Positions 4,549 through 57,425 of a DNA stretch of 64,000 bases are shown here, in pieces. The position numbers and the translations under genes are program-made. Position 1 is the stretch's first letter, and each line of letters begins with the position of its first letter. Source of the DNA: a virus. Below the pieces are notes generated by a model. That model was given only the letters and a program-made list of their open reading frames with translations. It was not told the DNA's origin and made no database searches. Location of the stretch: the IMG/VR virus record IMGVR_UViG_3300047284_000202, positions 23,170 to 87,169 of that record; one strand, 5' to 3'.

Positions 4549-4552
4549 CCAT

Positions 4553-4623: not shown

Positions 4624-4626
4624 CCA

Positions 4627-4698: not shown

Positions 4699-4702
4699 CC
4701 AT

Positions 4703-4777: not shown

Positions 4778-4778
4778 C

Positions 4779-4807
4779 TTGACAGACTGCTTCTGGTCTG
4801 TTACTAT
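4779..4807 (+). promoter_or_regulatory. Sigma70-type promoter after tRNA array
   Basis: TTGACA at 4779-4784 directly follows tRNA-Arg. TACTAT at 4802-4807 is a 17-bp-spaced -10 candidate. It would drive two small ORFs and tRNA-Met/tRNA-Asn. Confidence 0.6.
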
Positions 4808-4832
4808 ATACTATGTGATCAGGGACAAATTT

Positions 4833-4988
4833 ATGTCACTATTATCAAAACAAGATCGAGACCTAACGGTTGAAGCAATTGAGTTCTATCTTTTTAATAA
4901 AAAGTTTGATCTCTCTGAGGAGAAAATCATGCAACTCAATGCCCTTAGGAACTGGATCCAATTAGAAAATTTTAAGCATGAAAATTAA
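4833..4988 (+). CDS. Small hypothetical protein
   Basis: The 51-residue ORF (MSLLSKQDRDLTVEAIEFYL...) is preceded by AGGGA and the promoter at 4779. The ATG at 4833 is preferred to an upstream TTG lying in the -35 box. It is mainly helical by composition, and the following gene overlaps its 3' end. No family recognised. Confidence 0.6.
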   Translation: MSLLSKQDRDLTVEAIEFYLFNKKFDLSEEKIMQLNALRNWIQLENFKHEN

Positions 4989-5151
4989 TCTCTGGTATTG
5001 TGAAACGATGAAACAATGGAGGTGGACTCTAATTGATGATCATCGTCCAATTGTTAAAATGGAATCTGGTCAACAACCAGATCTTCGAGTAGCAATGAAT
5101 GACATTGCTACTACTGTTGAATATATGTTAGAAAATAGTGGGGAAGTGTAA
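4978..5151 (+). CDS. Small conserved hypothetical protein
   Basis: This 57-residue ORF has a W-Y-C...W-R-W-T aromatic N-terminal half and a DLRVAMNDIATTVEYML helix. It overlaps the previous gene by 11 bases, and its last 15 bases lie inside the tRNA-Met acceptor. It looks like a short family repeated in cyanophage genomes. Function unknown. Confidence 0.6.
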   Translation: MKINLWYCETMKQWRWTLIDDHRPIVKMESGQQPDLRVAMNDIATTVEYMLENSGEV

Positions 5152-5208
5152 CGGTTGCACAGAAGTCTCATAAGCTTCAGGTAGATGGTTCAATTCCATC
5201 CCCCGCCA
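5137..5208 (+). tRNA. tRNA-Met-type (CAT)
   Basis: Anticodon stem GAAGT/GCTTC with loop CTCATAA gives CAT. Acceptor AGTGGGG pairs with CCCCGCC except for an A-C mismatch at the first pair, an initiator-like feature. CCA is encoded at 5209-5211. It overlaps the 3' end of a small ORF. Confidence 0.88.
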
Positions 5209-5217
5209 CCAAATCAT

Positions 5218-5289
5218 TCCCCTATAGCTCAACGGCAGAGCAGAGAGCTGTTAACTCTAAGGTTCCTCGTTCGAATCGAGGTGGGGGAG
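5218..5289 (+). tRNA. tRNA-Asn (GTT)
   Basis: Acceptor TCCCCTA pairs with TGGGGGA. Loop CTGTTAA gives GTT. T-arm CCTCG-TTCGAAT-CGAGG. Last tRNA of the main array. Confidence 0.94.
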
Positions 5290-5324
5290 TCCGTGTGAAG
5301 GAAGTGTTAAAGGAGAAGTAAACT

Positions 5325-27051: not shown

Positions 27052-27175
27052 GACTGAATTGGAGGATATGATACCTTGGGAAAGGGATATCTACGTTAGA
27101 ATGCTTATGAAATGGTTAAAAGAAGAAGAACAACGTCAGAGATCTGCACAAGCACAAGGTAAAGTTAGTCTCTAA
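26972..27175 (+). CDS. Frameshift extension of gp26 / small hub-assembly ORF
   Basis: The -1 frame is open from the slippery site and reads RIALLHDNLGNYYKTNFALM, then a helical domain LTELEDMIPWERDIYVRMLM and a Gln-rich tail, about 67 residues. A -1 shift would give a gp26 fusion of about 304 residues, like the lambda G-GT chaperone pair. Independent starts at TTG 26984 or ATG 27029 are possible, but no strong ribosome site is seen. It shares its last base with the tape-measure start. Confidence 0.7.
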   Translation, partial: RIALLHDNLGNYYKTNFALMQHHKYSLTELEDMIPWERDIYVRMLMKWLKEEEQRQRSAQAQGKVSL

Positions 27176-30100
27176 TGGCACAGATTAAAGTTAGGTCATT
27201 CGTAAAGGTAAATCCCACTACTAAAGCTAGTAGTGGGATTGCTGCGTCTTATGCAGCAACTATAAAAGGTATCAATAGAATGGGAGGGGCAGTAGAATCC
27301 CTCGGTAAAAATTTAGAAACGGTAGATAAGTTATTTAAATTTAGAAATGAATTCTTGATTCAATCGCAGGCAAAACGAATCAAGTTAGAAGATAGGTTAA
27401 GTGCAGCAGATGCAAGAGATGAAAAACTATCTGAGCAGAAACAGAAACGTTGGTGGAGACGTTTCTTAGATCAAAAAGCAGAAGATGCTAGTGAGAAAGC
27501 AGTTAAGGATCCTGAAAAGGTAATTGATAAGAAGGCAGATATAATCAAAAAAGCATTATCACCACTTGAGAAGTTCTTCAAGGTCTTCAATGGTGTGTTG
27601 GAACCAATCATGAGAATGTTTGTTCTCATGCCAATTCTCAATTGGATCACAGGGCAGGATACTGGAAAGTTAGCAAAAACAATAGGTAATGTAATAACCA
27701 TTGTTAGTTTTGTTCGAAAACTTGTTGGATTTGGTGTAGGTACATTATTAGATGGACTATCAAATCTATTTGGTGGTTTTGATAGAATTAAGCATGGAAA
27801 TGTTGCTGGTGTACTGCAGGGATTTGTTGGTGCATTACAATTAGTCAGTGGTGTTGCTTTAGTTAAGGCAGCACAGTATATCTTCATGCCTTGGAAACTC
27901 ATTGGTGATGTTAAGTGGGTAACCAGTCTGTTCACCGAATGGGGTAAGATTACTGGTGAGGCACAAGGTGCCGCAATGAATAAAGACATTGCTGGGTATG
28001 TTGATAAGAATGGTAATGTAATCTCTAAGGAAGATTTTGAGAAAGCAAAAGCAAAAGCACGAAAGCATGATGAAAAGGTTGCCAAAAGGCAAGGTAAGGG
28101 ATGGGCATACAGTGGTGGTCAAGATTACCTAGGTGATAGGTATCGTGCACAATATGGTGGACGTAAGAAAGGATTCCTAGCACGAAATGCTCAACGTGGT
28201 AGAATTGCATTTAAACGTGGAACTAGAGGAATTCGTGGTCAATTTAAAATGGCTGGGAATTGGATGGCAGCCAATCCAACAAAGGGTAATGCTATTTTCT
28301 CAGTTGTAGGTGGTGTAACTAGAGCAGCTACTGGTTTAATGTCTGGTGAAGGTGGTGCAGCAGTTGGTGCTGGAGTTGGACAGGCTGCAGGTGGCATTGC
28401 TGGTTTTGCTCTTGGTAATATGCTTCTTCCTGGTATTGGAGGAATCATTGGTTCTGCTTTAGGATCATTCTTAGGTGAATGGGTTGGGACCAAATTGGGT
28501 CCAATGATTGAACCAATTATCAAACCAATTGGTAATGCATTTAAACTTGGATTTGATATTATTTCTCCTGCTGTTGGGTTTATTGCTGGTGAAGCAGGAG
28601 AGATGTTCTCTGCATTATTTGATGGTCTCGGTGCTCTATTCCAACTTTCAGGGTATATTGCTAAAGTTGGAATGGATGTGCTCAAATTTGCTTGGGAAAG
28701 TTCATTAATCAAAAAGGCAGTTGATGGATTGGTTTGGATTTGGAAAAATAAAGATAATATTGGTGGTGCAGTAAGAGATGTTTTAGCTACTGGTGCTAAG
28801 GGACTTGCTGATAGTTTGACCTTTAACGTATTTGATTTTGATAGACAAAATAAGAAAGCAATTGGTGGTCCTGTTCCAATAATGGCAGCAGGTGGTGTTC
28901 TGGAAACAGATAGTCCAGAAGTGATGGGATTGAAGTATGCTGGATCTGCTATCATTGCAACTACTTCTTCTACACTGGACAGACTTGGTATTGTTGGTAA
29001 TATTGTCAAGTCTGCAATTGCACCTCAAGTTAGTTTTTATGGTAATTTATTTGGTGTGAGTAAGGTTGCAATTTCTGGTGACAGAATGCAATCTCAGATC
29101 AATAAACCTTCTGCAGACCTAAACGTTGGAAGTCAAAGTGCTCCATCATCAGATAACAGTGCTGCGAGAAAATTAATTGGTGAAGGATCTGTAAATATTC
29201 TTACGGCACAACCAGATAAATTTAGTCCAATAAATCAAAAAACCACCAGAGGATTACTTGCTGACATTTATAATGCTTTTGTGTCTGCACGTTTTGGTGG
29301 AGGTGGTGGAACTACCAACAATCCTGCTGTTCCAGGTACAGATGCCGCATTAACTGCAGCAGATTTAAAAGCAATTCAGGCATCTTCTGCAGATAAGAGG
29401 GCAGCAGCACACCTAGCAACTTTGGAAGCTAGTGCACCTCAACATGTTGCTGATGTTTATCAGGTAATTTTAAACAGAGCAGCAAAACAATCTGGTGGTA
29501 TTCCAGCAGTTATTACGGCAAGAGAGCAGTTCTCCCCATATTCTGCGGCATTATATGGTTCCAGTGCTGATGGTGCTGCAGCATCTAAGTATGGGTCATT
29601 GAAGTTAACTAAGAAGGAACTGTTTGAACTTGCTGCTAAACCAGATGGAATACAGCAATTAACAAAGAGATTCCAAGCAGGCAATCCCAGTGTTGCTGCA
29701 AAAGTTCTTGCTGACTTTGAAATGAATGGTCCACTATCACAATCTGCTAAGAAATTTGTTGGTGGTGCTCAATATTTTATGGGGTACAAAGTTACTGCTG
29801 TTGATAGAAGAAGACCAGATGGTGGAAACTGGATTCGTGATAAGTATGCAGTTGGTGGTGTTTACAAGTATGATAATTTGATGGATTATTATGGAAGCAG
29901 AGGTAAAACTGGGCAGCAACTGAAGAAAGCATATATGATACAGGACATTGAAGGTACAGAACTAAAAAGAAAATTTGCTGCTGGTGGTGTTTATAATTAC
30001 AATTTAATACCAGCACAGGCATATGGTGCTTCTAGAGATGGTGGTCGTAGACAACATGCTGGACAGGATTTAGATATTTCTGGTAATGAAGCAGTACAAA

Positions 30101-30828
30101 CATTTGGTGGTGGAGTTGTTGTTGGTGTATATCACCAAAGTGGTGGTTATGGCAAATATATTGATATCTGGAATGATAAATTAAAAGTTGTAGAAAGAAT
30201 TGCAGAACTAAGTAGTTTCAGTGTCAAGAAAGGTGATACTCTACAACCAGGTCAAATTGTAGGTAGAGGTGAGACGGACACTGGAGTTGCTCACATTGAA
30301 GTTCGTCCAATGAGTTCATATGCAGAAAAATATGGATTCAGTGGAACCAGAAATCCATTAGCATTTTGGAAGTCTGTGGGAGCTGCTGTTGATGTTGGTG
30401 GTAATAAAATCAAACTTACATCAAAGGTAACTGGATCTGCAGATTTTGTCCCTTCCGATATTGCTGGTGGTGGAACTGGTGGTAAATCACTATTAGAGGG
30501 TGGTGGGGGAGTATCTGATCCATTTATTGGTGCACAACAAGATTTAGATAAAGCACTGAAATTGTGGGCAGAAGCATTTGGTGGATCTACTGCAAGTACG
30601 TCCAATTCTCTATCACCAAAGGCATCACCTTCTGTAAGTGCAGCTCCAGTGTCAACATCAACTTCATCTACAGTTCAGAGAGGTTCTGAACAACATGTAT
30701 CTAGAGAAGCAACTAAACCAGGTGTGGCTGCTGTTGTTCCAGTTCCATTAGTTGCACAGGTAGGATCACCACAACCACTACCTACATTTGTTAAGAGTAC
30801 AGCACTTCCAAAGGCAACAGTTAACTAA
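27175..30828 (+). CDS. Tape-measure-like tail protein with peptidoglycan-hydrolase domains
   Basis: The 1217-residue protein has a helical N-terminus (residues 1-110), hydrophobic segments (about 135-260), and a Gly/Ala zipper region (about 370-450). Around residues 740-850 is a SleB-type cell-wall hydrolase pattern (ADVYQVILNRAAK...REQFSPYSA). At about 955-1045 is an M23-like metallopeptidase with QHAGQDLD and GVAHIEVRP; the second motif has HIE where HxH is usual. The C-terminus is Ser/Thr/Pro-rich. It is probably the tape measure (gp29 role) and opens the cell wall. It is paralogous to the next gene. Confidence 0.75.
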   Translation: MAQIKVRSFVKVNPTTKASSGIAASYAATIKGINRMGGAVESLGKNLETVDKLFKFRNEFLIQSQAKRIKLEDRLSAADARDEKLSEQKQKRWWRRFLDQKAEDASEKAVKDPEKVIDKKADIIKKALSPLEKFFKVFNGVLEPIMRMFVLMPILNWITGQDTGKLAKTIGNVITIVSFVRKLVGFGVGTLLDGLSNLFGGFDRIKHGNVAGVLQGFVGALQLVSGVALVKAAQYIFMPWKLIGDVKWVTSLFTEWGKITGEAQGAAMNKDIAGYVDKNGNVISKEDFEKAKAKARKHDEKVAKRQGKGWAYSGGQDYLGDRYRAQYGGRKKGFLARNAQRGRIAFKRGTRGIRGQFKMAGNWMAANPTKGNAIFSVVGGVTRAATGLMSGEGGAAVGAGVGQAAGGIAGFALGNMLLPGIGGIIGSALGSFLGEWVGTKLGPMIEPIIKPIGNAFKLGFDIISPAVGFIAGEAGEMFSALFDGLGALFQLSGYIAKVGMDVLKFAWESSLIKKAVDGLVWIWKNKDNIGGAVRDVLATGAKGLADSLTFNVFDFDRQNKKAIGGPVPIMAAGGVLETDSPEVMGLKYAGSAIIATTSSTLDRLGIVGNIVKSAIAPQVSFYGNLFGVSKVAISGDRMQSQINKPSADLNVGSQSAPSSDNSAARKLIGEGSVNILTAQPDKFSPINQKTTRGLLADIYNAFVSARFGGGGGTTNNPAVPGTDAALTAADLKAIQASSADKRAAAHLATLEASAPQHVADVYQVILNRAAKQSGGIPAVITAREQFSPYSAALYGSSADGAAASKYGSLKLTKKELFELAAKPDGIQQLTKRFQAGNPSVAAKVLADFEMNGPLSQSAKKFVGGAQYFMGYKVTAVDRRRPDGGNWIRDKYAVGGVYKYDNLMDYYGSRGKTGQQLKKAYMIQDIEGTELKRKFAAGGVYNYNLIPAQAYGASRDGGRRQHAGQDLDISGNEAVQTFGGGVVVGVYHQSGGYGKYIDIWNDKLKVVERIAELSSFSVKKGDTLQPGQIVGRGETDTGVAHIEVRPMSSYAEKYGFSGTRNPLAFWKSVGAAVDVGGNKIKLTSKVTGSADFVPSDIAGGGTGGKSLLEGGGGVSDPFIGAQQDLDKALKLWAEAFGGSTASTSNSLSPKASPSVSAAPVSTSTSSTVQRGSEQHVSREATKPGVAAVVPVPLVAQVGSPQPLPTFVKSTALPKATVN

Positions 30829-30834
30829 TAAATA
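30827..30834 (+). promoter_or_regulatory. Late promoter between the two tape-measure-like genes
   Basis: AATAAATA at the stop of the first gene, 22 bases before the second gene's ATG; GGAAAGGGG follows as ribosome site. Confidence 0.5.
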
Positions 30835-30855
30835 CTTACGGAAAGGGGAATCTAA

Positions 30856-33800
30856 ATGGCAACACCCACAGATAGACCAGCAAAACCTAAACTTTATAAG
30901 ATGGTTTCTGTACCAAAGGTAACTGGTGGTGCTACTATTAAAGTTGGTGGTAGCACCATTACTGGTGGTGGTGCATCAATGACTGGAATCATCAAGGCAA
31001 TGAATAGTCTTGGTGCAACTGTTAATAGTGTTGCTATTATTACGGAGTCTATTGCTAAGCAAACTCAAAGAACAATTGCTACTGAAATTAGACAGCAGAG
31101 TGAACTAATTCGTAGGCAAGAAAGACTCAGAAAAGTAAAAGCAAAAACTGACAAAGATAAGGAAGACAGAAAGAGAAAAGAAGCACAAAGACAGAGGGAT
31201 GCAGAATCCGAAAAGAAATCTGAAGCAGGTGGTAAATTCTTAGTTAAGTTCACTAAATTTGCAACTGCAGCAGCAGGAGGATTCTTTCAAGGATTGGCAA
31301 CATTACTTGGTGGTATTTTCAAGGCATTTGTAGTAACTGCTGTACTTGATTGGATTAGTAAACCAGGAAATACTGATAAGGTTGCTAACATCATTAAAGG
31401 TATTGTTGGTATCTTTAAGGTTTTCCAGAGACTATTATCTTTTGGTGTAAGTAGTGCTTTAGAGGGACTTGCAAAATTAATTGAGAATCCAATATCATTC
31501 AAGGGATTATTTGGTGCAGTACAATTTATTGTAGGTGCTGCTATATTAATGAAGGGAATGAAGTGGATGATGAATCCAGCTTCCCTAGCAAAAGATTTTG
31601 TTTCGGTTCTATCCTTTGTTGCTAAGGGCATCATTAACCTGAAGAAAGGTGTTGGTGTATATGGTGCCATAAAGAAACTTGCCTCCACCAGAGCAGGCAA
31701 ATATGCCATGGCAGGTGCCGTGGGAGTCGGTGCTGGGATGGGTTCTGCCCTGCTGGGTGGCACTAAGGAGGAAGCAATCGGCACGGGTCTCGGTGCTGCA
31801 GCAGGCACCATCGGTGGGGAGATGCTCGGCACTGCGTTGGGTGGTGAGGCTGGTGGAAAGGTTGGAGCAGCTGCTGGAGGTCTCCTAGGGGGTCTTGTGG
31901 GTGGTCCTGTGGGCAAAGCACTCAAGCCAGTTACGGATGCCATCGGTAAATTCTTCGGATTGATTGGTCAGATTCTGAAACCAGTATTTGATTTTGTAAT
32001 GAATATTGGTAAAGAATTCTTCAGTGCAATTGGTGATCTAATTCAATCTGTTGTCAATTTACTTGAACCACACAAGGAAACTCTATCTTGGATTGCAAAG
32101 GGATCTCTCTTTGTTGCATTCATGCCTTTGATCATGTTGATGAAGGGCATAACAAGTTTAATTAGATTATTCGTACCAAAAGGTTCTGCAGATAAGGGAA
32201 GAAGTGATACTACAAAAAGAGCAATAGGTGGTCCAGTTGTTGTGCCTAAGATGGCAACAGGTGGAATGATTGGAAATACTGTCATGGCAAATCCAATCAC
32301 CCAACAGTTACAGCAAGCACTTTCAAATGCAATCCTATTACCATTCAAAGCAGTTGGTATTGGATTAATTTCTGCTATGAGTATGGTCGGTAGTGTCTTT
32401 GGTGCTTTCCTACCAGGACCAATGCAAATGCTCTTAGGATCAGTATTGGCACCTATTGCATCTATGTTTGGTGTTCCTAATTCAGTCTTTAAGAAGGTTG
32501 CTGGATTTGCACTGAAAGGAATTAAGAATGCAGGACAAGCTGTAGTTGGATTTGCCAATACTGCTTCTGATGCATTATCTGATCTTTTTGATGCTTCTAG
32601 AGGTGATAGTGTTAATGGATTATTATCTAAGATTCTTGATGCTGTTATGAAGATGGGTGGTCATACCACTCCACAAGCATCTATTGGTGGTGTAATTCCC
32701 CAAGCAGCTGCAGGTGGTTGGATTAACGGTCCTATGTCTGGTTATCCAGTATCATTGGATGGTGGAAGATCAACTGCATTTATTGGTCACGGTAGAGAAT
32801 GGGTAGGATTTAAAGGTCGTGCTGCTGGTGGTGGTGCAGGATCTGCTTTTGTCATCCCATTTAATACACCAGCAACTGTCAGAACACCTAGTTTGACTTC
32901 ATTGAGAATGAGTCAGGCACGTGCTGGTGGATATGCATTACCTAGATCTATCGGTGGTGTTGTTCCACAATTTGCAACTGGTGGGGAGTTTGATCCAGCA
33001 AAATATAGAGAAGGAATTAAATCTAGTGATAGAGTTAAGATTCGTTCTCTAGATAAATCATATGTTTTTGGATATACTGTTGGTGAAGATGCACAAGTAA
33101 ATATCAAACAACTCAACAAGTATACTGGTGGATTCCTATCAAATGATCTAGTCGGAGTACAACCAGGATCACCAGAATGGAAAAAGGTAGTTAATTCTAC
33201 AGATGCAATTGATTGGTTTAAATCACATTCTGTACCTGCGATCAAGTCAAGTCAAGTCAAGATTAAAGTAGATCCTCAGGCAGATCTTGGATACTGGTAT
33301 AATCAAGCATATCAGACACATTATAATGATTGGAAGAAAAAGGGACTCTCCCATAGTGAAGCATCTGCTCTAGCATCTAAAGCAGCAAAGGAATTTGCTA
33401 TTTCTAAAAAGGCTGGTTCATTGTTACCAGGAGCAAAGGGTGGATCTGCACCTGCTGATCTTAAGAATGTTGAAGTTGCTTCAGGTGGTCCTGCATCTGG
33501 TGATGCATTATCATCAAAAACAGAATCTGATCCATTTGCATCGGCACAAACAACTTTAGATGAAGCACTTAAGAAATGGCAGGAAGCATTTGGTCCTAAA
33601 ACTGGAGACCAATTAGATAAGCAATCTCAGGACACCAAGAGTGCTCAGGAGAGAGCACAAATGGATGCAACTCAAGCAGCTGCAAATAAACTATCAGCAA
33701 CTGCGACTGCAACTGCTGCTAATGTTGCTAATGCAAAACCACAAGCAGCAGGGGCAATTCCATTAAATAGTACTGGTGAAAGACCTTCTTCTGATATTAA

Positions 33801-33870
33801 TCCATTCTTAAGGTCTCAATTTGGTGTTGTTTCTCAAGCAAATTATGCACCCCAAAATATTGTAGTCTAA
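30856..33870 (+). CDS. Second tape-measure-like tail protein (paralogue)
   Basis: The 1004-residue protein shares its plan with the preceding gene: a charged coiled-coil (about 75-125), then AVLDWISKPGNTDKVANIIK...LLSFGVSSALEGL (compare LNWITGQDTGKLAKTIGN...VGFGVGTLLDGL), a glycine zipper (about 285-355), and a DPFASAQTTLDEALKKWQEAFG segment near the end (compare DPFIGAQQDLDKALKLWAEAFG). The hydrolase domains are missing. Bases about 31680-31940 are strikingly GC-rich compared with the rest. It is probably a tail-core or tape-measure partner. Confidence 0.7.
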   Translation: MATPTDRPAKPKLYKMVSVPKVTGGATIKVGGSTITGGGASMTGIIKAMNSLGATVNSVAIITESIAKQTQRTIATEIRQQSELIRRQERLRKVKAKTDKDKEDRKRKEAQRQRDAESEKKSEAGGKFLVKFTKFATAAAGGFFQGLATLLGGIFKAFVVTAVLDWISKPGNTDKVANIIKGIVGIFKVFQRLLSFGVSSALEGLAKLIENPISFKGLFGAVQFIVGAAILMKGMKWMMNPASLAKDFVSVLSFVAKGIINLKKGVGVYGAIKKLASTRAGKYAMAGAVGVGAGMGSALLGGTKEEAIGTGLGAAAGTIGGEMLGTALGGEAGGKVGAAAGGLLGGLVGGPVGKALKPVTDAIGKFFGLIGQILKPVFDFVMNIGKEFFSAIGDLIQSVVNLLEPHKETLSWIAKGSLFVAFMPLIMLMKGITSLIRLFVPKGSADKGRSDTTKRAIGGPVVVPKMATGGMIGNTVMANPITQQLQQALSNAILLPFKAVGIGLISAMSMVGSVFGAFLPGPMQMLLGSVLAPIASMFGVPNSVFKKVAGFALKGIKNAGQAVVGFANTASDALSDLFDASRGDSVNGLLSKILDAVMKMGGHTTPQASIGGVIPQAAAGGWINGPMSGYPVSLDGGRSTAFIGHGREWVGFKGRAAGGGAGSAFVIPFNTPATVRTPSLTSLRMSQARAGGYALPRSIGGVVPQFATGGEFDPAKYREGIKSSDRVKIRSLDKSYVFGYTVGEDAQVNIKQLNKYTGGFLSNDLVGVQPGSPEWKKVVNSTDAIDWFKSHSVPAIKSSQVKIKVDPQADLGYWYNQAYQTHYNDWKKKGLSHSEASALASKAAKEFAISKKAGSLLPGAKGGSAPADLKNVEVASGGPASGDALSSKTESDPFASAQTTLDEALKKWQEAFGPKTGDQLDKQSQDTKSAQERAQMDATQAAANKLSATATATAANVANAKPQAAGAIPLNSTGERPSSDINPFLRSQFGVVSQANYAPQNIVV

Positions 33871-48385: not shown

Positions 48386-49192
48386 ATGAGTACACTTAAG
48401 GTAGCAAATATCCGAGATTTGGCAGGTACTGGAGGATTTTACCTAAACTCTGGTACTATTTCGGCACAAGGTACACTTACAGTGTCCAACCTTGTAATTA
48501 ACGGTACAATCTCTGGTACTAATAAACAATATCTTCCATCACAATCTGGAAACTCTGGTAAGTATCTAACCACTGACGGAACTAACCCATCCTGGGGAAC
48601 TCTATCACTTGATGCTGGTCCTGTATCAATGCAAGTATTTACTGGAAACGGCACTTGGAATAGACCAGCAAATATTAAATATATTCGTGTTCAGTGTCAG
48701 GCTGCAGGTGGTGGTGGATCTGGTCACGGTGAATCTGGCGGTGCTGGTGGATATTCGGAAGTTCATGTAAATGTCCAATCTGTATCATCGGTTGGTGTTA
48801 CAGTAGGTGGAGGTGGTGGAGGAACATATTATGCAAACGCAGGTGCTAATGGATCTGGTTCATCATTTGGTGGATATTGCTCAGCTCAAGGTGGATGGGG
48901 AGCAAATCAACAGGCTCAGCATTGTGGTGGTGCTTCTGGTGGTGCTTCTGGTGGTTCCTTAAATATCCACGGTGGTGGTGGACAAGGGCACGAACATTAT
49001 GGTGGTGGTGGAGATGGTGGAGCATCTTATTTTGGTGGTTCTGGACCATCTGGACACCCTAGAGGTGGTAACTATGCACACAACCACCAAGGTCATTCTG
49101 CACCAGGAACAGGAGGTTCTTCTGGTTGGCAAAGTGGTCACCGTGGTGCAGACGGCAGACCTGGAATTGTAGTAATCACGGAGTACAAATAA
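48386..49192 (+). CDS. Fibre with glycine-rich adhesin tip
   Basis: The 268-residue protein begins with a shaft-type repeat (STLKVANIRDLAGTGGFYLN...). From about residue 107 it is dominated by Gly-rich runs (AAGGGGSGHGESGGAGGY, GGASGGASGGSLNIHGGGGQ) with His/Tyr between them, ending GIVVITEYK. This recalls the polyglycine-II sandwich of gp38-type adhesins of T-even phages, which carry variable host-binding loops. It is likely a receptor-binding tip. Confidence 0.7.
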   Translation: MSTLKVANIRDLAGTGGFYLNSGTISAQGTLTVSNLVINGTISGTNKQYLPSQSGNSGKYLTTDGTNPSWGTLSLDAGPVSMQVFTGNGTWNRPANIKYIRVQCQAAGGGGSGHGESGGAGGYSEVHVNVQSVSSVGVTVGGGGGGTYYANAGANGSGSSFGGYCSAQGGWGANQQAQHCGGASGGASGGSLNIHGGGGQGHEHYGGGGDGGASYFGGSGPSGHPRGGNYAHNHQGHSAPGTGGSSGWQSGHRGADGRPGIVVITEYK

Positions 49193-49193: not shown

Positions 49194-49676
49194 ATGAAAA
49201 AAGTATTATTAGACTACAAAGGTATTATTTCTGAAATTTGTGATCCTGGACAAGAATATGAAATTTATGAAGGTTCTGATGCTAATTGTTCCTGGGTAGA
49301 TGCACCCGATGATGTTACATATTTTTGGTCTCTTGAGTGGAGTCCATCTAAAAATGCGATGGTTTGGATTGAAAGGGAGCAACCTTTTGCTGATCCTACA
49401 CTAAAGAGACAAATTGCATATGGATCAATTGGTGAGCAATTAGATATGTTGTATCGTGATATCAAAAGTGGTAAGATTTCTGAGGGAGAGTGGGTTTCTC
49501 ATATTGATACTATCAAAGAGACTGTTCCAAAACCATATGATGATGAAGTTAGTATGGAAGAAATCCAACAAAAACTAGCAGATAATGAACCAGATTCGTC
49601 CAAACCAGTGATTTATTCAAATAGAGATCTTCCTGCATGGGTAAGATATTCTGGATGGAAAGGATTCACAGCTTGA
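49194..49676 (+). CDS. Probable tail-fibre assembly chaperone
   Basis: The 160-residue protein has the central RQIAYGSIGEQLDMLYRDIK followed by SGKISEGEWVSHIDTIKETV, typical of proteins encoded after phage fibres and of fibre-assembly (XkdW/Tfa-like) helpers. It is one base after the adhesin stop, with which it is probably co-translated. Its last bases overlap the halogenase promoter. Confidence 0.6.
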   Translation: MKKVLLDYKGIISEICDPGQEYEIYEGSDANCSWVDAPDDVTYFWSLEWSPSKNAMVWIEREQPFADPTLKRQIAYGSIGEQLDMLYRDIKSGKISEGEWVSHIDTIKETVPKPYDDEVSMEEIQQKLADNEPDSSKPVIYSNRDLPAWVRYSGWKGFTA

Positions 49677-49701
49677 CATAATATCGTCTTATAACTATAA
49701 T
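49673..49701 (+). promoter_or_regulatory. Consensus sigma70 promoter for halogenase-oxygenase block
   Basis: TTGACA (49673-49678), exactly 17 bp, TATAAT (49696-49701), 23 bases before the halogenase ATG. I noticed no TATAAATA late box from here to 57.4 kb. Confidence 0.85.
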
Positions 49702-49724
49702 AGTAATGTAGGTTTGAGCATAGT

Positions 49725-51341
49725 ATGAAAATTGAAAGTATTTGTATTGTTGGTGGTGGATCTTCTGGATGGATGACTGCTGCGGCACTCAGTAAATTAT
49801 GTCCAAATATGCAGATTGCTTTAGTTGAGTCTGCAAATGTAAAAACTGTTGGTGTAGGTGAATCTACTCTCGGACATATCAATCGTTTTCTTGATCTTCT
49901 AGATCTTAAAGATGAAGATTGGATGTCAGCATGTAATGCAACCTACAAAAACTCCATTCGTTTTACCAACTTTAGAGAAAATGATGGTACTCATTTTGAG
50001 TATCCATTTGCTGCTGGATTTGATTATACTGATAAGTATGCTGGGTTGTTGACCTGGGCAGATTTATCTTCTCTATATCCAGAAGAATACACTCCTGAAA
50101 CTTTTGCAGAATTTTATGCTACTGGAAATACTTTTCTGGCAAAATACAATAAACAGTCTAAGAACGAAGATCAAGTTTTTAGAAATTTCAATTTTAAGTA
50201 TGACACTGCATACCATATGGATGCAGAGAAGTTTGGTCAATATTTAAAAAATAATATTGCAATTCCAAATGGAGTTGTGCATGTTATTGGAGATGTATGT
50301 AAATATCAAGTGGATGAATCCACAGGAAATATTACTTCTATCCTGACTGAAGATTCTATATCAATTGAAGCAGATTTGTATATTGATTGTACTGGATTTA
50401 AATCTTTGCTTCTAGAGAACTGGATGGGATCTAGATTTGTATCATTCTCAGACATGCTTGCAAATAATAAAGCAATGGCATGTAGAATTCCCTATGTGGA
50501 TAGGGAAGAGGAAATGGAAAATGTTACAAACTGTACTGCAATCGAAAATGGTTGGGTATGGAACATTCCTCTTTGGAATAGGATTGGAACAGGATACGTT
50601 TATTCCGATAGATTTGTTGATAAGGAAACTGCAGAGAAAGAGTTTCGTGCACACTTAGCAAGAGATCCAAGATTTGAAAAACGTGCTGAAGAAGCAGAAA
50701 TGTTCCATATCAACATCAGACATGGTAAAAGAGCTCGAGCATGGGTCAATAATGTTGTTGGTGTTGGACTATCTTATGCATTTGTAGAACCATTAGAATC
50801 AACAGGTCTTCTAACAACACATGAAAACATTGTCAAACTGGTAGAAACTCTAAATCGTAGAAATGGATTTGTCGGTCGTCCTGATATTGATGCTTTCAAT
50901 TTTGCTTGTGATTATGAAATGAATGGATGGAAGCAATTTGTTGCTATTCATTATGCTCTTTCCATGAGAACTGATACTCCATATTGGAGGTGGTGTACTG
51001 AAATTAATGAGTACGTTCCTGACATTTTTGATAGTAATGTCCGTGAACCAAGAGGAATACAGAATTTTTATTATCAAACTAATATCGCACATTTCTGGAA
51101 TGAAGATCTACAAGGTATTAATTACATTGCAGCAGGAATGGGTCACAAACCACATGCTACTAAGAAAGTTGTACTTTCCAGTATGCAGAGAGCAGGTTAC
51201 TCGATGGATGTTGTTGATGATACAAAGAGAAAATATGAACAATATCGTGATTATGTGATTGAGTATGTCAAGAATCTTCCCTCACATTACGAGTATTTGA
51301 AAAATAACATTTATGGTGGTGTTGATGAATTTATTCAATAA
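49725..51341 (+). CDS. FAD-dependent tryptophan-type halogenase
   Basis: The 538-residue flavoenzyme has the FAD motif GGGSSGW at residues 10-16, GVGEST at 43-48, the halogenase tunnel motif WVWNIP at 277-282, K75 where the catalytic lysine lies in PrnA-type enzymes, and PLES with E358-S359 at the glutamate site. It should halogenate an activated aromatic through HOX and Lys-haloamine. Cyanophage VirX1 is a known relative with a broad substrate range. A reduced-flavin supply is needed and no flavin reductase is seen nearby. Its substrate is unknown. Confidence 0.92.
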   Translation: MKIESICIVGGGSSGWMTAAALSKLCPNMQIALVESANVKTVGVGESTLGHINRFLDLLDLKDEDWMSACNATYKNSIRFTNFRENDGTHFEYPFAAGFDYTDKYAGLLTWADLSSLYPEEYTPETFAEFYATGNTFLAKYNKQSKNEDQVFRNFNFKYDTAYHMDAEKFGQYLKNNIAIPNGVVHVIGDVCKYQVDESTGNITSILTEDSISIEADLYIDCTGFKSLLLENWMGSRFVSFSDMLANNKAMACRIPYVDREEEMENVTNCTAIENGWVWNIPLWNRIGTGYVYSDRFVDKETAEKEFRAHLARDPRFEKRAEEAEMFHINIRHGKRARAWVNNVVGVGLSYAFVEPLESTGLLTTHENIVKLVETLNRRNGFVGRPDIDAFNFACDYEMNGWKQFVAIHYALSMRTDTPYWRWCTEINEYVPDIFDSNVREPRGIQNFYYQTNIAHFWNEDLQGINYIAAGMGHKPHATKKVVLSSMQRAGYSMDVVDDTKRKYEQYRDYVIEYVKNLPSHYEYLKNNIYGGVDEFIQ

Positions 51342-52104
51342 GAAGAGTTGGGTTAGATTTTATTCCCTAGAACCCGCAGTAGTTGATTTATTTCCAGTTG
51401 TTCCTGCAAGTTCTCTTCACCGAACTTGGAAAGAACCAGAAGTTAAAAAGAAAAAATGTCCATTTTCTGGACTTGTATCATCATCAAACTGTCCAGCAAT
51501 TACTACATTTTCTAGTTTGGGATATGTAGTAGTTGCTCCAGCAGATTTTATCATCACAACGAATGGTGATGGAATTAATTTTCAATGGCAAACCAATCAT
51601 ATTTTTACCAAAGGTATGAATGGATATATTGCTAGTCACGAAGAAGAACAAACTGTTCCACTATTAGATGATGTGAATACTACACTGAATACTGTAGTTA
51701 AAATTGAGACACCATGGAGAATTAAATCTTCAGATGATGTTGTTTTTCTACAGACTCCAGTTCACTATATGAATGAGAGTAGATTTACAGTTGCAACTGG
51801 AATCTTGGATCCAAGATTTGCTCATGTTGTCCATGTTCAATTATTTTGGAAAGTTTTAGAAGGAGAAACTTTAATCAAAGCAGGAACACCATTGGCTCAA
51901 TATATACCATTGAGTAGGAAGTACCTATCTCCAAAGAACTACGATCTTATCGTTGACAAAGCAACACAAATAGAGTATGATCTTGAAGAGTCGTTTCAGT
52001 ATGCCAATAGTGCAAACATATTAAAATACGACTCTATTCAGAATAGATTAAATAGAGTCGTAAAAGTTCTTAATTCCTATAGGAACGGTAAAAATAAATT
52101 ATAA
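51325..52104 (+). CDS. Conserved hypothetical protein next to halogenase
   Basis: The 259-residue protein overlaps the halogenase end by 17 bases. The region VVKIETPWRIKSSDDVVFLQ...HVVHVQLFWKVLEGETLIKAGTPLAQYIPLSRK resembles DUF6065-type beta-barrel proteins often found near modification genes. The CPFSG and SSNCP motifs near residues 45-60 contain its only two cysteines. ATG 51313 is an alternative start. Substrate binding or chaperone function is only a guess. Confidence 0.65.
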   Translation: MNLFNKKSWVRFYSLEPAVVDLFPVVPASSLHRTWKEPEVKKKKCPFSGLVSSSNCPAITTFSSLGYVVVAPADFIITTNGDGINFQWQTNHIFTKGMNGYIASHEEEQTVPLLDDVNTTLNTVVKIETPWRIKSSDDVVFLQTPVHYMNESRFTVATGILDPRFAHVVHVQLFWKVLEGETLIKAGTPLAQYIPLSRKYLSPKNYDLIVDKATQIEYDLEESFQYANSANILKYDSIQNRLNRVVKVLNSYRNGKNKL

Positions 52105-52125
52105 AAACATTGGAGGTTCACTAAA

Positions 52126-52362
52126 ATGACTATTGATGAATTAATTGTTGATTTTCAGTATCAACATGGACAAAAGATGGAAGAATTTGAAAAAATGAAT
52201 GAGGAACTGTCAAATCCAGTTCTCAATCCATATGGAGTAACTAAGATTGATTTTAGTCAAAGAGAAAATCTTAGAACTGAAATTATTAAACTGGAGGGTG
52301 CAATTGAGGGATTAGAATTGTATAATCAACTTAATAGCACAAGTGCGGAGGATGCTGAATAA
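52126..52362 (+). CDS. Small helical protein
   Basis: The 78-residue, Glu/Asn-rich coiled-coil-like protein (KMEEFEKMNEELSNPVLNPY...) has TGGAGG upstream. It overlaps the first oxygenase gene (TGAATAA). No function recognised. Confidence 0.65.
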   Translation: MTIDELIVDFQYQHGQKMEEFEKMNEELSNPVLNPYGVTKIDFSQRENLRTEIIKLEGAIEGLELYNQLNSTSAEDAE

Positions 52363-53119
52363 TTTTAAATTTTGCCAACCAGATGCTTTTACATTTTCTG
52401 ATTGGATTAAAATAAAATCAATACATGAGATTGATTTTGAATATACCTACTTTGATACTGACATTGGTTATTGGACTATTTCTTCCCCATTTCATGATAA
52501 TGGATTTGAATTATTTCAAAATTTAGTGGGGCAGTTTCCAATTGAAAAACATACTAATTCAATTGAACCAAATCAATTTTGTTGTATACATTTACCGTAC
52601 TGGATAACAAATAATATGTTATTTCTTATTAAAGAATTTTTTGATTCTCATGTAAGAAAATATTATAACAATTATTCTTTTGGTGAATGGGGCAATATTT
52701 TCATCAGGGAGATGATTAAACCACTAAAATGTTATTCTTTACCTCATTTTGACCATAAAATTGGGATAGTTGGTAATTTATGGTTTAGTGATCATAGTGG
52801 AGATAGGGGAACTTATTTGTATAAGTATACTGGAAAAATTCATGGAGATTACTATGATTTTCAAATTGATCCAGAACACAAAAAATTTAACGAATACAGA
52901 ATGTTAGTTGAGTCAAAAGATAGATATTCCGAATGGATTAATATCTCAGATTCAGAGTGTGGAGAATGGGGATTTGTTCAACTTGGACTTGCACCTGCGA
53001 AGAAAAATACCATAACTTTATATGAGTCTAGTGTTTCACATTCTCCGTTCATATCAAATAAATGTAATTATAGTTGGTCACACACATTTGCATTAGAATG
53101 TACTGGGGGAATAATATGA
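52352..53119 (+). CDS. Fe(II)/2OG oxygenase-like protein 1
   Basis: The 255-residue protein carries the facial-triad layout H132-x-D134 in SLPHFDHKIG and a distal histidine H230 in YESSVSHSPF. No clear 2OG-binding Arg is seen ten residues after H230, unlike the relatives downstream, so activity is less certain. Similar to DUF6445-type proteins. ATG 52352 is preferred to a GTG nine bases upstream. Confidence 0.65.
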   Translation: MLNNFKFCQPDAFTFSDWIKIKSIHEIDFEYTYFDTDIGYWTISSPFHDNGFELFQNLVGQFPIEKHTNSIEPNQFCCIHLPYWITNNMLFLIKEFFDSHVRKYYNNYSFGEWGNIFIREMIKPLKCYSLPHFDHKIGIVGNLWFSDHSGDRGTYLYKYTGKIHGDYYDFQIDPEHKKFNEYRMLVESKDRYSEWINISDSECGEWGFVQLGLAPAKKNTITLYESSVSHSPFISNKCNYSWSHTFALECTGGII

Positions 53120-53691
53120 TAGAAGAAGTGCATTTATGGAAACCACTTATATGGAGGTTTCAATATGAGTTTAATTGTGAAGCACTTTTACCTAAAATTG
53201 ATGGTCTGCGTGAAAGAATAATCAATCCCTCAAACTTAGAAATTGGTGCCGCAATTTCAACAGTCGGAGTCGATGCTAAAGATAGACCTCATCACTGGTC
53301 AGAACTACAACATTTTAATAATTTCCTCAAACATAAAATTGCTTATGTTTGGGATCAGTATGAATTCAAAACAAAAACACATTCTTCTATTGAACAATCT
53401 TGGTTTAATATTCACTTAAATAGTGGTATAACTTTAGAGCATTATCACAACAATGTATTATTAATTGTTGTTTGTTATATTCAACTTCCAGAAAATTCTG
53501 GTTACATTCAATTTAGAGATCCTTTAGAGTACCATTGGGGAAATACTCCAATAATTCCTGAAGAAAAAACATGGAAAACATTACCATGTAAGACAAATGA
53601 TGTTTTAATTTTTCCTGGGTGGATTCGTCATAGAGTTGAGGAAAGTTGTAGTCCAGAAAAAAGAGTTGTTATGACATACAATATTGTTTAA
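53116..53691 (+). CDS. Fe(II)/2OG oxygenase 2 (TIGR02466-like)
   Basis: The 191-residue protein reads SWFNIHLNSGITLEHYHNN with H109 and H111. The distal ligand is H172 in GWIRHRVEES, and R183 in EKRVVMTYN fits the 2-oxoglutarate contact. This is the small phage/marine-bacterial oxygenase type, with H-x-H where H-x-D is usual. It starts ATGA over the previous stop. Confidence 0.78.
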   Translation: MIEEVHLWKPLIWRFQYEFNCEALLPKIDGLRERIINPSNLEIGAAISTVGVDAKDRPHHWSELQHFNNFLKHKIAYVWDQYEFKTKTHSSIEQSWFNIHLNSGITLEHYHNNVLLIVVCYIQLPENSGYIQFRDPLEYHWGNTPIIPEEKTWKTLPCKTNDVLIFPGWIRHRVEESCSPEKRVVMTYNIV

Positions 53692-53699
53692 GAAGTACT

Positions 53700-54278
53700 A
53701 TGAGATTAGAATTTTGGTTTCCAACTCCGATATGGTCTTGCAATTTGGACTATGATACTAATAAAATTTTAGATTATGCATTAAATTTATTCTCAGTTGA
53801 TGATGGCAGAGATGCAACTAATGTTGGTGGATGGCAATCTAATGATTTGTATTATGAAAATGATAGTCCAATCAAAGATTTCCTGGATATTATTAACATC
53901 AAACTAACTGAGTGTATTTTTGAGTATAATTATGAAATTTCTGGTATTGAACTGGGAAATTTTTGGTTTAATATAAATGGACATGGTAATTATAATCTAA
54001 CCCATACACATCCAGGATCATTCCTTTCTGGTGTTTATTATATTAAAGTCCCAGAAGATTGTGGAGTTATTACATTTGATAATGACTCAAAATCTAATTT
54101 TATATTACAATCACATAGGACAACTGGAGACAGTGTTTTATCTCATAGTCAATGCAAATATCCACCACATGAAGGAATGTTGATAATTTTCCCATCTTGG
54201 TTACCACATTCAGTAACAGCAAACAATTCTCATGAAAGTAGGATATCTTTTTCTTTCAACTCTAGGATTTTAAAATAA
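53700..54278 (+). CDS. Fe(II)/2OG oxygenase 3 (TIGR02466-like)
   Basis: The 192-residue protein begins with the family hallmark FWFPTPIW. It contains NLTHTHPGSFLSGVYYIKVP with H102 and H104, LPHSV with H170, and R181 in SRISFSFN. It is a paralogue of the preceding gene by motif order. It shares its last base with the next start. Confidence 0.85.
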   Translation: MRLEFWFPTPIWSCNLDYDTNKILDYALNLFSVDDGRDATNVGGWQSNDLYYENDSPIKDFLDIINIKLTECIFEYNYEISGIELGNFWFNINGHGNYNLTHTHPGSFLSGVYYIKVPEDCGVITFDNDSKSNFILQSHRTTGDSVLSHSQCKYPPHEGMLIIFPSWLPHSVTANNSHESRISFSFNSRILK

Positions 54279-54919
54279 TGGAATCTATACCAACAATTAT
54301 TATTGATAAATTTTTTGAAACTCCTTCATTGGTTCGTCAATATGCTCTCGGCCTTGACTTTTATAAGGGTGATAGGGGAAACTGGCCAGGCACAAGAACA
54401 GATTTTATTGATAAATTAAATCCAGAACTCTTTGAAGTTGTTGCAAAGAATCTAATTAAATATCTTAAAGGTTATACTGGATTTTCTGAGCTACAAATCT
54501 CTTTTCAGTTGGTTACTAAAATTCATGAAAAGGGATGGATACATACTGATGACACCAAATTTAATGTTGGTGCTGTAATTTTTCTAAATCCAGATTCACC
54601 AGTTGATAGTGGTTTTTCTGTATTCGATATGCAAAACTATGCTGGTGATGGATATTGGAATCAACATAGCAAACTAAAAGAAGAATACTTTTCTAAATTC
54701 CAAAAACAGGTTAAATCTGAGGATCCAGAAGAGATTAAAAAATATGTTGAATATAGAGATTTACACAATTCATCATATACTGAAAATATTTCTATTCAAA
54801 ATAGATTTAATAGAGCTTTAATTTTCTCTAGTAGTCAGTGTCATTCTGCTCAGAACTTTTTTGGTGATGGTAAAGATGATGCTAGATTGACTTTAGTATG
54901 TTTTGGGAGAGCAGTATGA
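54278..54919 (+). CDS. Fe(II)/2OG oxygenase 4 (DUF6445-like)
   Basis: The 213-residue protein has GWIHTDDTKFNVGAVIFLNP with H89-x-D91, QCHSAQNFF with H189, and ARLTLV with R203, the complete H-x-D...H...R set. The N-terminal KFFETPSLVRQYALGL is typical of the DUF6445-like branch. It overlaps the next gene by four bases. Confidence 0.78.
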   Translation: MESIPTIIIDKFFETPSLVRQYALGLDFYKGDRGNWPGTRTDFIDKLNPELFEVVAKNLIKYLKGYTGFSELQISFQLVTKIHEKGWIHTDDTKFNVGAVIFLNPDSPVDSGFSVFDMQNYAGDGYWNQHSKLKEEYFSKFQKQVKSEDPEEIKKYVEYRDLHNSSYTENISIQNRFNRALIFSSSQCHSAQNFFGDGKDDARLTLVCFGRAV

Positions 54920-55530
54920 ATAAAGTCAAACTTATCAGGGATGCAATTCCATTGCCTATTTGTGAATTACTATCCATAGAATTCCAATTGATCAAAGATA
55001 ATATGGATCTTGTAAATTATGATCATTCCTATAAAGATCCAATGTGCCCTGGTAGTTTTTCTTGGTATGCTCCTTTACCATTTGAATCTTTACTTGAGTA
55101 TCTCAAACCAAAAATTGAAGATGTCATGCAGATGACATTACATCCAACATATTCTTATGCTAGAATATACACTGAAGGTGCTTTCATGGAAAAGCACACT
55201 GACAGAAGATCTTCTGAAATTGCTGTTAGTTGCTGTATTGATAAAGATTCTGAGTGGCCATTAATTTTTGATATTGACGGTAAAGAAAATGAAGTATACA
55301 TGAATGTCGGTGATATTTGTGTGTATAAAGGTATGGAAGTTCCCCATTGGAGAAATGAATACCAAGGTAATAAACAAATTCAGGCATTTTTAATGTATGT
55401 GGATGTAAATGGTCCCTATGATTATTTTAAATATGATACCAGACCAATGCTCGCAGCACCTTTTTCTACAGTTAAACAAGTAGTCATTGATGAAATGAAC
55501 GGTAAAGTAAATGACCCACAAAATTATTAA
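54916..55530 (+). CDS. Fe(II)/2OG oxygenase 5 (prolyl-hydroxylase-like)
   Basis: The 204-residue protein has YARIYTEGAFMEKHTDRRSS with H94-x-D96, VPHWR with H144 and K153 ten residues on as a possible 2OG contact. The pattern resembles P4H-type hydroxylases. ATG 54916 overlaps the previous stop; a start at 54898 is possible. Confidence 0.78.
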   Translation: MNKVKLIRDAIPLPICELLSIEFQLIKDNMDLVNYDHSYKDPMCPGSFSWYAPLPFESLLEYLKPKIEDVMQMTLHPTYSYARIYTEGAFMEKHTDRRSSEIAVSCCIDKDSEWPLIFDIDGKENEVYMNVGDICVYKGMEVPHWRNEYQGNKQIQAFLMYVDVNGPYDYFKYDTRPMLAAPFSTVKQVVIDEMNGKVNDPQNY

Positions 55531-56092
55531 TACAAAATCTAATAAAATTATTCATGTTTTTGATGAAGTGTTCAGTTATCAGACTAGAACACTTTTACAT
55601 CGTTATATGATGAACTCTAATTATCAACCAATAGGGTATGATAATGACATTCTTGAGTATAAATCTGATATTACTACAATATCACTTTATTCTGACAATG
55701 ACGTGAAAAATATGAATTTTTATGGAAATCCTGAGGGGCAATTCTTATCATCGCATTTAACTGGTTATGAAACCAATTCAATATCAGTAAATATGTGCAC
55801 ACCATCAGATAAGTATAGAATTCATATGGATGCTGCTGATGGATTGACACTTTTATATTATGCTAATCTTAAGTGGGATATTGAATGGGGTGGGGAAACA
55901 CTATTTTTTGATGAAGAATTGGATGATATCGAATTTACTTCAATATATAAACCTGGAAGAATCGTTCTATTTGATTCGTCAATTCCCCACATGGCAAGAA
56001 CTCCTACGGTAATTGCTCCATACTATAGATTTACTTTTGTGCACAGATTTCAGAGAGCAAAGATGGTGAAACTAAATGACGTTATCAATTAA
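55511..56092 (+). CDS. Fe(II)/2OG oxygenase 6
   Basis: The 193-residue protein has KYRIHMDAADGLTLLYYANL with H105-x-D107, then WDIEWGGETLFFDE, IPHMARTP with H160 and YYRFTF with R173, the full set of a prolyl 4-hydroxylase-type double-stranded beta helix. It overlaps both neighbours by 17-20 bases. Confidence 0.82.
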   Translation: MTHKIINTKSNKIIHVFDEVFSYQTRTLLHRYMMNSNYQPIGYDNDILEYKSDITTISLYSDNDVKNMNFYGNPEGQFLSSHLTGYETNSISVNMCTPSDKYRIHMDAADGLTLLYYANLKWDIEWGGETLFFDEELDDIEFTSIYKPGRIVLFDSSIPHMARTPTVIAPYYRFTFVHRFQRAKMVKLNDVIN

Positions 56093-56771
56093 CAAAATTA
56101 AAAACTTCCAAAATTTTATCATCAATGATAAACCATTTTATATCAAAAATGCTCTTACTGATGTTGATGACTACTTATCTTGGCAGACAGTAGAGGAATG
56201 CTTGAATGATCCAATAAAGTATAAATTTGAATGTATTGATAAAGATAATCAATCAAAAATACAGTTTGGGCAAATTAAACCATTCTGGAATGAAGTTGCT
56301 ATTCCTGATAAAAAGCACTTATTCAATATAGTTTCATCTGGTAATACTCTTGTTATACTTAATTATGGTCAATATAGCAAGAGCACCAACAATTTGTGTA
56401 AAACTATAGAAAATAATTTTCTTGTTGCCACAGATATACACGCATATTGTAGTTTTTCAAAATCAAAATCTTTCAAGATACACTGTGATTATGCCAGTAA
56501 TTTTATAATTCAATGTTATGGTACTACACACTGGAAAGTCTATGATAATAGATTATCCACTTTGTATCCAATTTCAAATTATGAAATTGATGAAAATGAG
56601 TTGGAGACTTTAATTGATATTGAATTGGTTCCTGGTGATTTAATTTACATACCATCTAGAATGTATCATAAAGCAGAACCTTCCGAAAAGAGATTATCAA
56701 TGAGTATTCCTTGTGTACCAATGATGTTTGATGTGACTAGATATGATAGAAATTACTACAGTTTACTATAG
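56076..56771 (+). CDS. JmjC/cupin-type oxygenase 7
   Basis: The 231-residue protein has FKIHCDYASNFIIQCYGTTH with H136-x-D138, then WKVYD, LVPGDLIYIPSRMYHKAEPS with H198. The GTTHWKVYD...PGDLIYIP order is characteristic of JmjC hydroxylases of the cupin-8 or RoxA kind, which usually hydroxylate proteins. It is a different subfamily from its neighbours. Confidence 0.82.
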   Translation: MTLSINKIKNFQNFIINDKPFYIKNALTDVDDYLSWQTVEECLNDPIKYKFECIDKDNQSKIQFGQIKPFWNEVAIPDKKHLFNIVSSGNTLVILNYGQYSKSTNNLCKTIENNFLVATDIHAYCSFSKSKSFKIHCDYASNFIIQCYGTTHWKVYDNRLSTLYPISNYEIDENELETLIDIELVPGDLIYIPSRMYHKAEPSEKRLSMSIPCVPMMFDVTRYDRNYYSLL

Positions 56772-56776
56772 ACAAA

Positions 56777-57376
56777 ATGGATGATATTTTAATATTTGAT
56801 AACATAATTCCCAAAAGGCAATCAGAATATATTTTAGACTCTATATTTACTGATTCATTTCCTTGGTACTTTATGCCAAAGATAGTAGATCCAAATGGAG
56901 AAAGCAACTATCAGAATGTTTCGGGATTCAATCATTTTCTATTAGAGGATAATAAAAAAGTATCTCAATACTTTGATATGTTCTATCCAATAGTCATGAA
57001 TGTTTTGGATAAGCAAGAGGTTACATGTAATCAAATTATCAGGATGAGATTAAATCTACATTCTTGTCATCCAGATACTAAAATGGAGTATCATCTACCT
57101 CATATTGATTCCTTTTTCCCACATATGAACATGATTTGCTATCTAAATGATAGTGATGGTGATACTTTTATCTTCAATGAAGTCAATGAGCATTTTAATA
57201 CTCAATACGACAGTGAAATAGTCTCTAACAATAAGTTTACTATTAAAAAAAGAATTACACCAAAGATGGGAAGATGTGTAGTATTTGATGGTAGGTATTA
57301 TCATTCATCATCTTATCCGAAAAAGTCCCTATCTAGATGTGTAATGAATGTAAATCTTGCAACAATTAAATTGTGA
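56777..57376 (+). CDS. Fe(II)/2OG oxygenase 8
   Basis: The 199-residue protein has LPHIDSFFPHMNMICYLNDS with H109-x-D111, DGRYYHSSSYP with H176, and SRCVMNVN with R187. It is the last gene of the block; a hairpin (GACCC/GGGTC) and a new promoter follow. Confidence 0.82.
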   Translation: MDDILIFDNIIPKRQSEYILDSIFTDSFPWYFMPKIVDPNGESNYQNVSGFNHFLLEDNKKVSQYFDMFYPIVMNVLDKQEVTCNQIIRMRLNLHSCHPDTKMEYHLPHIDSFFPHMNMICYLNDSDGDTFIFNEVNEHFNTQYDSEIVSNNKFTIKKRITPKMGRCVVFDGRYYHSSSYPKKSLSRCVMNVNLATIKL

Positions 57377-57396: not shown

Positions 57397-57425
57397 TTGA
57401 CAGACCGATCCACATGACCTATAGT
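57397..57425 (+). promoter_or_regulatory. Sigma70-type promoter for the small-gene region
   Basis: TTGACA (57397-57402), 17 bp, TATAGT (57420-57425), 22 bases before the first small ORF. Confidence 0.75.

Follow-up and report, generated by a model that had tools for sequence, protein, structure and literature searches.

A tight operon encoding a flavin halogenase and eight oxygenase-like proteins was analyzed in a 64,000-nucleotide stretch (the window) of virus record IMGVR_UViG_3300047284_000202 (87,169 bp). The record contains psbA, many transfer RNA (tRNA) genes and T4-like tail genes, and therefore the source virus is a cyanophage. The cassette (positions 49725-57376) consists of eleven co-directional genes, which encode, in order, the halogenase, a phrog_7084 protein with a predicted dUTPase fold, a small protein and the oxygenases O1 to O8. 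It follows genes for a glycine-rich (Gly-rich) tail-fiber adhesin and a phrog_1787 protein. On balance, we favor the reading that the cassette is a late post-translational modification module which hydroxylates and halogenates the phage's own Gly-rich adhesins. This reading is based on late promoters, on exchange of the cassette together with the adhesins, and on enzymes that are partly derived from protein hydroxylases (O5 and O7). The gene set, its catalytic residues, its conservation, its obligate co-occurrence, the late promoters in half of the relatives and the block exchange were observed directly.

Conservation of the cassette and its linkage to tail-fiber adhesins

Conservation was followed in 37 loci that had 8 kb of sequence downstream and a halogenase with at least 54% identity. 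Orthologues of O2, O3, O4, O5 and O8 were each present in 36 of these loci, those of O1 in 35 and those of O7 in 33, and these seven distinct oxygenases form a recurring core set to which O6 does not belong. The phrog_7084 gene was found in 34 loci and the gene for the 78-amino-acid (aa) small protein in 36. The mean number of oxygenases per locus was 9.1, versus 2.4 in fourteen loci with more distant halogenases. The gene order among the relatives was largely kept (2-1-3-7-8-4-8-5), with a rearrangement in the window phage and its closest relative, L047. In a reverse search from O1, a halogenase lay upstream in all 71 loci with upstream sequence, and none of these carried the O1 family without it. 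The ratio of nonsynonymous to synonymous substitutions against L047 was 0.08-0.41 for all tested genes, with synonymous sites near saturation, which indicates purifying selection on every one of them. The gene set is a conserved unit and not a chance run, and its synteny is far from the random, unlinked insertion that would have spoken against a functional system.

The Gly-rich tail-fiber adhesin genes (one to three, within 4 kb) were found directly upstream in all 48 dereplicated cassettes, and in 47 of these the phrog_1787 gene lay between adhesin and halogenase. The 1057 genes in these loci included 140 Gly-rich genes, 138 of which occupied the upstream adhesin place. A search of 50,697 phage records (denominator: the 296 with a T4-like cyanophage structural gene) recovered the adhesin N-terminus in 14 records and phrog_1787 homologues with at least 69% coverage in 20; every one of these records bears the halogenase, but neither these co-occurrence counts nor those of upstream linkage are independent trials, since the loci are related. 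The Gly_rich_2 domain exceeded the cut-off in all four tested cassette-positive phages (L001, L003, L004 and L101), as well as in phage Sf-CH11, and in none of five cassette-negative phages.

Two isolates named S-RIM44 (NC_047734 and KU594607) share about 96% identity on both sides of one swapped block. The NC_047734 version of this block (about 87.1-112.6 kb) comprises structural genes of the tail fiber, three Gly-rich genes, phrog_1787, two halogenases, phrog_7084 and oxygenase genes. The corresponding block of KU594607 has different versions of the tail-fiber genes together with two hypothetical proteins and a short gene; the latter carries a 2-oxoglutarate (2OG) oxygenase annotation in the near-identical Syn1. 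A single exchange of tail fiber, adhesins and cassette thus separates the two isolates. The partnership was also seen in other genome layouts. In Sf-CH11, two 2OG genes, a halogenase, a further 2OG gene and O5 are placed between two Gly_rich_2 genes; in contigs L088 and L089, which have different phage structural genes, a Gly_rich_2 tail gene is paired with halogenase and 2OG genes; and in L072 a collagen-like protein is encoded beside the halogenase.

In 25 of 51 cassettes the halogenase is preceded, at -21 to -60, by a T4-type late promoter (background 0.33%), and ATAAATA late-promoter elements are located at -40/-36 of the window adhesin. The consensus sigma70 promoter reported in the preliminary description is present ahead of the window halogenase, but it is mostly not conserved beyond the nearest relatives: 11 of 12 positions were reached in 5 of 52 cassettes, including L047, and about half of the relatives carry the late promoter in its place. 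It was therefore rejected as a general feature of the cassette. Further sigma70-like promoters (11/12) occur just behind the array (57397-57425) and inside the phrog_7084 gene (51953-51981).

A bacterial origin of the cassette was also considered and rejected. A genome scan yielded only distant halogenases, and the three contigs from metagenome-assembled genomes (MAGs) that have 2OG neighbors look phage-like. These contigs (L087, L088 and L089), filed in Maricaulis and Dehalococcoidia MAGs, carry phage-like genes, a halogenase and several 2OG genes, and are probably misbinned phage contigs; L087 and L089 also carry a phrog_7084-type protein.

Enzymes and accessory proteins of the operon

The coordinates of the features are given in Table 1. 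At most junctions the genes overlap by 1-28 nt or lie 5-21 nt apart, and no gap exceeds 21 nt. The layout given earlier for positions 49673-57376 agreed with the open reading frames, whose coordinates also bore out the pattern of one transcription unit.

The halogenase showed full-length homology to the Pfam family Trp_halogenase, and its nearest solved relative was VirX1 of cyanophage Syn10. The motifs GGGSSG and NGWVWNIP and the catalytic residues Lys75 and Glu358 were present; in an alignment of 20 sequences the catalytic residues were invariant, as were the two Trp and the Pro of NGWVWNIP. The earlier identification of a tryptophan-type flavin adenine dinucleotide halogenase with intact key motifs was therefore upheld. 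By homology, it is a VirX1 orthologue, a flavin-dependent enzyme of the VirX1 clade with the same catalytic motifs and predicted halogenating activity, an activity that is known for VirX1 alone (PMC8407142). VirX1 is the product of CPUG_00131, the second halogenase of Syn10, where it is found in the same cassette with the same gene order. Many relatives, among them the marine loci L025, L029, L131 and L146, have another two or three halogenase genes, located behind the array in the opposite orientation, which may bring the total in a single phage to four or five.

The H-x-D/H...H metal triad, which the preliminary description had found complete, with a likely 2OG contact or JmjC core, in seven of the oxygenases, was present in all eight and was 88-100% conserved within the respective families, with the metal ligands retained in relatives. 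An Arg that would bind 2OG follows the distal His in O2, O3, O4, O6, O7 and O8, and in O5 no Arg is conserved at the usual distance. Residue 241 of O1 is Ser in the window phage and Arg, presumed to bind 2OG, in 94% of relatives; given Ser241, O1 of the window phage may be altered or inactive.

With the curated Pfam cut-offs as the pass criterion, five of the eight oxygenases were matched: O2, O3 and O6 by 2OG models, O7 by JmjC_2 and O4 by DUF6445. For O4, the link of DUF6445 to 2OG enzymes consists only of a weak match to PF13640. O8 fell just under the cut-off (24.3 vs 27 bits), and O1 was tied to O4 by a weak match in profile-profile comparison (66.9%, E 5e-5), both being members of phrog_1644. 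A double-stranded beta-helix was assigned to O2, O3, O6 and O7 by their Pfam matches and to O5 by its predicted structure (AlphaFold2 predicted local distance difference test score, pLDDT, 87.5), for which the nearest Foldseek match was the prolyl-4-hydroxylase of P. putida (E 4e-10); the fold, or a match to 2OG/JmjC profiles, is therefore not missing from most of the array. O7 matched NO66 and the L16 Arg hydroxylase with E values of 1e-5 to 6e-4. For O6 and O8 no PDB match was obtained. The start of O2 is more likely ATG at 53116 than TTG at 53074, the latter also being possible.

Profile comparison showed that O2 and O3 are close paralogues and that at least four subfamilies are represented, as had been claimed. 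Tandem duplication was rejected as the origin of the array, O2/O3 excepted, because the genes belong to separate orthologous groups across phages. Three PHROG labels were likewise rejected on the Pfam, PHROG, triad and O5 structure evidence: phrog_274 is called "DNA endonuclease V", phrog_2954 (the label given to O5) "ferrochelatase" and phrog_1644 "minor coat protein". The proteins are misannotated 2OG-type proteins, and the labels of these three families mislead phage annotation.

The phrog_7084 protein was modeled with a pLDDT of 86.9 and is predicted to have a dUTPase-like beta fold; its structure matches were dUTPases (E 2.4e-4, target TM up to 0.75). Of the five dUTPase catalytic motifs, a single one could be recognized, as a motif-3-like segment, GxxDPxY, in most cassette members, and the protein was thus not assigned as a dUTPase. 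The 78-aa protein has an invariant core, NPYGxT...F..R, and is possibly a coiled coil. A role as precursor of a ribosomally synthesized and post-translationally modified peptide is made less likely by its conservation, which runs along the core and is not leader/core-like.

Table 1. Adhesin, promoter and cassette features in the window
Feature	Position	Strand	Evidence or remark
Gly-rich tail-fiber adhesin	48386..49192	+	PF21722 Gly_rich_2 E 1.5e-6; phrog_863 E 9e-57; proposed substrate
160-aa phrog_1787 protein	49194..49676	+	phrog_1787 E 3e-25
sigma70-type promoter TTGACA-N17-TATAAT	49673..49701	+	12/12 consensus match
Flavin-dependent halogenase, VirX1 orthologue	49725..51341	+	PF04820 E 1e-104; PDB 6QGM E 3e-200
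phrog_7084 accessory protein, predicted dUTPase-like fold	51313..52104	+	AlphaFold2 and structure matches
78-aa small protein	52126..52362	+	Alignment
O1, 2OG-type oxygenase	52352..53119	+	H132-x-D134...H230; Ser241 for 2OG-binding Arg
O2, 2OG-FeII_Oxy_5 / TIGR02466	53116..53691	+	PF13759 E 1e-11; H123/H125/H186/R197 (numbering from 53074)
O3, 2OG-FeII_Oxy_5 / TIGR02466	53700..54278	+	PF13759 E 7.5e-27; PDB 3BVC E 6e-12; H102/H104/H170/R181
O4, DUF6445-type 2OG oxygenase	54278..54919	+	PF20043 E 5e-12; H89/D91/H189/R203
O5, prolyl-4-hydroxylase-like fold	54898..55530	+	AlphaFold2 and Foldseek; H100/D102/H150 invariant
O6, PF13640 / FlmC-like 2OG oxygenase	55511..56092	+	Outside core set of other cassettes
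O7, JmjC_2 (ribosomal-oxygenase-like) hydroxylase	56076..56771	+	PF08007 E 1e-18; H136/D138/H198/R206
O8, PF13640-like 2OG oxygenase	56777..57376	+	phrog_274 E 8e-37; H109/D111/H176/R187

Elsewhere in the window, 23 tRNA genes were located (1867-5292 and 14153-39423), 17 of them clustered within the first 5.3 kb. Positions 27175-33870 encode two long proteins, of 1217 and 1004 aa, that contain Gly-rich stretches, and the N-terminus of the first matches endolysin PHROGs.

Proposed function and alternative explanations

If the adhesins are the substrate, as we infer, then the adhesins, the 160-aa protein, the halogenase and the oxygenases would be produced together late in infection. Each oxygenase would add hydroxyl groups to side chains in the Gly-rich domain, at its own type of site, and the VirX1-type halogenase would halogenate aromatic residues (Trp, Tyr or His) of the adhesin. 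The modified tail tip would have a changed stability or receptor-binding chemistry; the identity of the modified residues and an effect on adsorption are part of the same inference. The phrog_1787 protein may be an adhesin chaperone, and a scaffold or substrate-presenting role for the dUTPase-fold protein and the small protein is a guess. A dedicated modification system had been proposed earlier, and the long-range conservation of the gene set supports such a putative conserved module. Among the three targets then named (the adjacent tail-fiber proteins, a host protein or a small molecule), the tail-fiber proteins were by far the best supported on genomic grounds, by the 48/48 linkage, the late promoters, the block exchange and the recurrence in other phage types.

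Several observations weigh against modification of the adhesin. The linkage of this candidate substrate to the cassette could partly reflect shared ancestry of the genome region. The window phage itself has a sigma70-type and not a late promoter before the halogenase, and the halogenase of S-H35 is found in the replication region, away from tail genes. Loci with an O5 homologue often lack a halogenase (51 of 80), although in 24 of these 51 a Gly-rich gene and a 2OG gene lie no more than 3 kb apart. Finally, VirX1, a characterized iodinase, was studied with small free aromatics, many of which it accepts in vitro (PMC8407142).

The last point also favors a cassette that makes or tailors a small molecule, such as a halogenated, hydroxylated amino acid or peptide. 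Tailoring is a classical function of flavin halogenases and 2OG enzymes, a halogenated secondary metabolite was proposed by Iyer et al. for the different cluster of cyanophage S-SSM6a (PMC7824862), and the authors of S-CREM1 suggested an antibiotic role (PMC9964418). However, the Pfam and PHROG searches found no scaffold-forming or substrate-activating enzyme among the operon genes, as a natural-product gene cluster should have, nor does the operon contain a transport gene. The conservation of the 78-aa protein is not that of a peptide precursor, and the linkage to the tail-fiber block would be left unexplained. We consider this explanation quite unlikely. Modification of the receptor on the host surface, a protein or a glycan, that the adhesin recognizes accounts for the linkage almost as well as modification of the adhesin itself. 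The enzymes would block superinfection or re-adsorption to debris and would travel with the adhesin as a block, which fits the block exchange, the strict adhesin linkage and the late expression. Against this, no signal or export functions were recognized in the cassette, and receptor conversion is normally an early event carried out by glycosyl- or acyltransferases. Receptor modification seems rather unlikely. The linkage is explained less well by a metabolite, or by a recombination hot spot behind the tail fiber that collects auxiliary genes with unrelated functions (2OG/nitrogen signaling or DNA repair), as Sullivan et al. (2010) proposed for the 2OG genes of cyanophages. A hot spot agrees with the AT-rich cassette (30-35% GC, vs about 36-42% in the surroundings; 30-33% across 52-58 kb) and with the frequent gain and loss of such genes in cyanophages (PMC3037559). 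It does not agree with seven orthologues kept in similar order, with an O1 family always accompanied by a halogenase, or with the Gly-rich partnership in Sf-CH11, L088 and L089, and we regard it as quite unlikely too.

Relation to known systems and significance

The VirX1 halogenase and the 2OG genes of cyanophages are already known (PMC8407142, PMC3037559, PMC9602691, PMC9964418, PMC10452541). T4-like cyanophages carry sets of 2OG-Fe(II) oxygenase genes, 24 in S-SCSM1 and 10 in S-CREM1, of the same families as the window array, and S-CREM1 has an orthologous array behind its halogenase; these were described, however, as many separate auxiliary metabolic genes and not as an adhesin-linked halogenase operon. 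In the papers covered, VirX1 is treated as a stand-alone biocatalyst without a stated native substrate or operon context. The S-SSM6a-type cluster resembles the cassette in combining a cyanophage halogenase with 2OG and cupin enzymes but differs (Iyer et al., 2021; PMC7824862) by its own carbamoyltransferases, methylase and phosphatases, and the halogenase of S-SSM6a/S-SSM7 is distant (30% identity). The halogenase passages of PMC2984593 and PMC7824862 draw no link to tail fibers. No published description was found of the cassette as a unit, or of a protein-modification system of this kind for phage tail tips, in a literature whose subscription papers were only partly covered, so an earlier description is possible.

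O5 resembles the P. putida prolyl-4-hydroxylase in fold and O7 resembles the ribosomal oxygenases YcfD, NO66 and MINA in sequence; both relationships are distant, and these bacterial and eukaryotic enzymes act on host translation proteins, EF-Tu in the case of the P. putida enzyme. Like the gp38 tail-fiber tip adhesins of T-even phages (e.g. PP01 gp38, PMC12892980), the window adhesin has a Gly-rich domain, lies in a tail-fiber cluster and is presumed to bind a receptor. It gave no PDB match in a sequence search against solved structures. We know of no modification cassette in enteric phages.

More tentatively, cyanophages may add halogen and hydroxyl groups to their own Gly-rich, receptor-binding adhesins by means of a dedicated cassette of ten to twelve genes, which would also be the native role of VirX1. 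For an enzyme used as a biocatalyst, the cassette offers a concrete, testable candidate for the native substrate. If true, the proposal would explain why some cyanophages have so many 2OG oxygenases, so far seen as scattered auxiliary metabolic genes. Abundant viruses of the ocean and of fresh water would then recognize their hosts at a new level, through a tail tip whose chemistry extends past the twenty amino acids.

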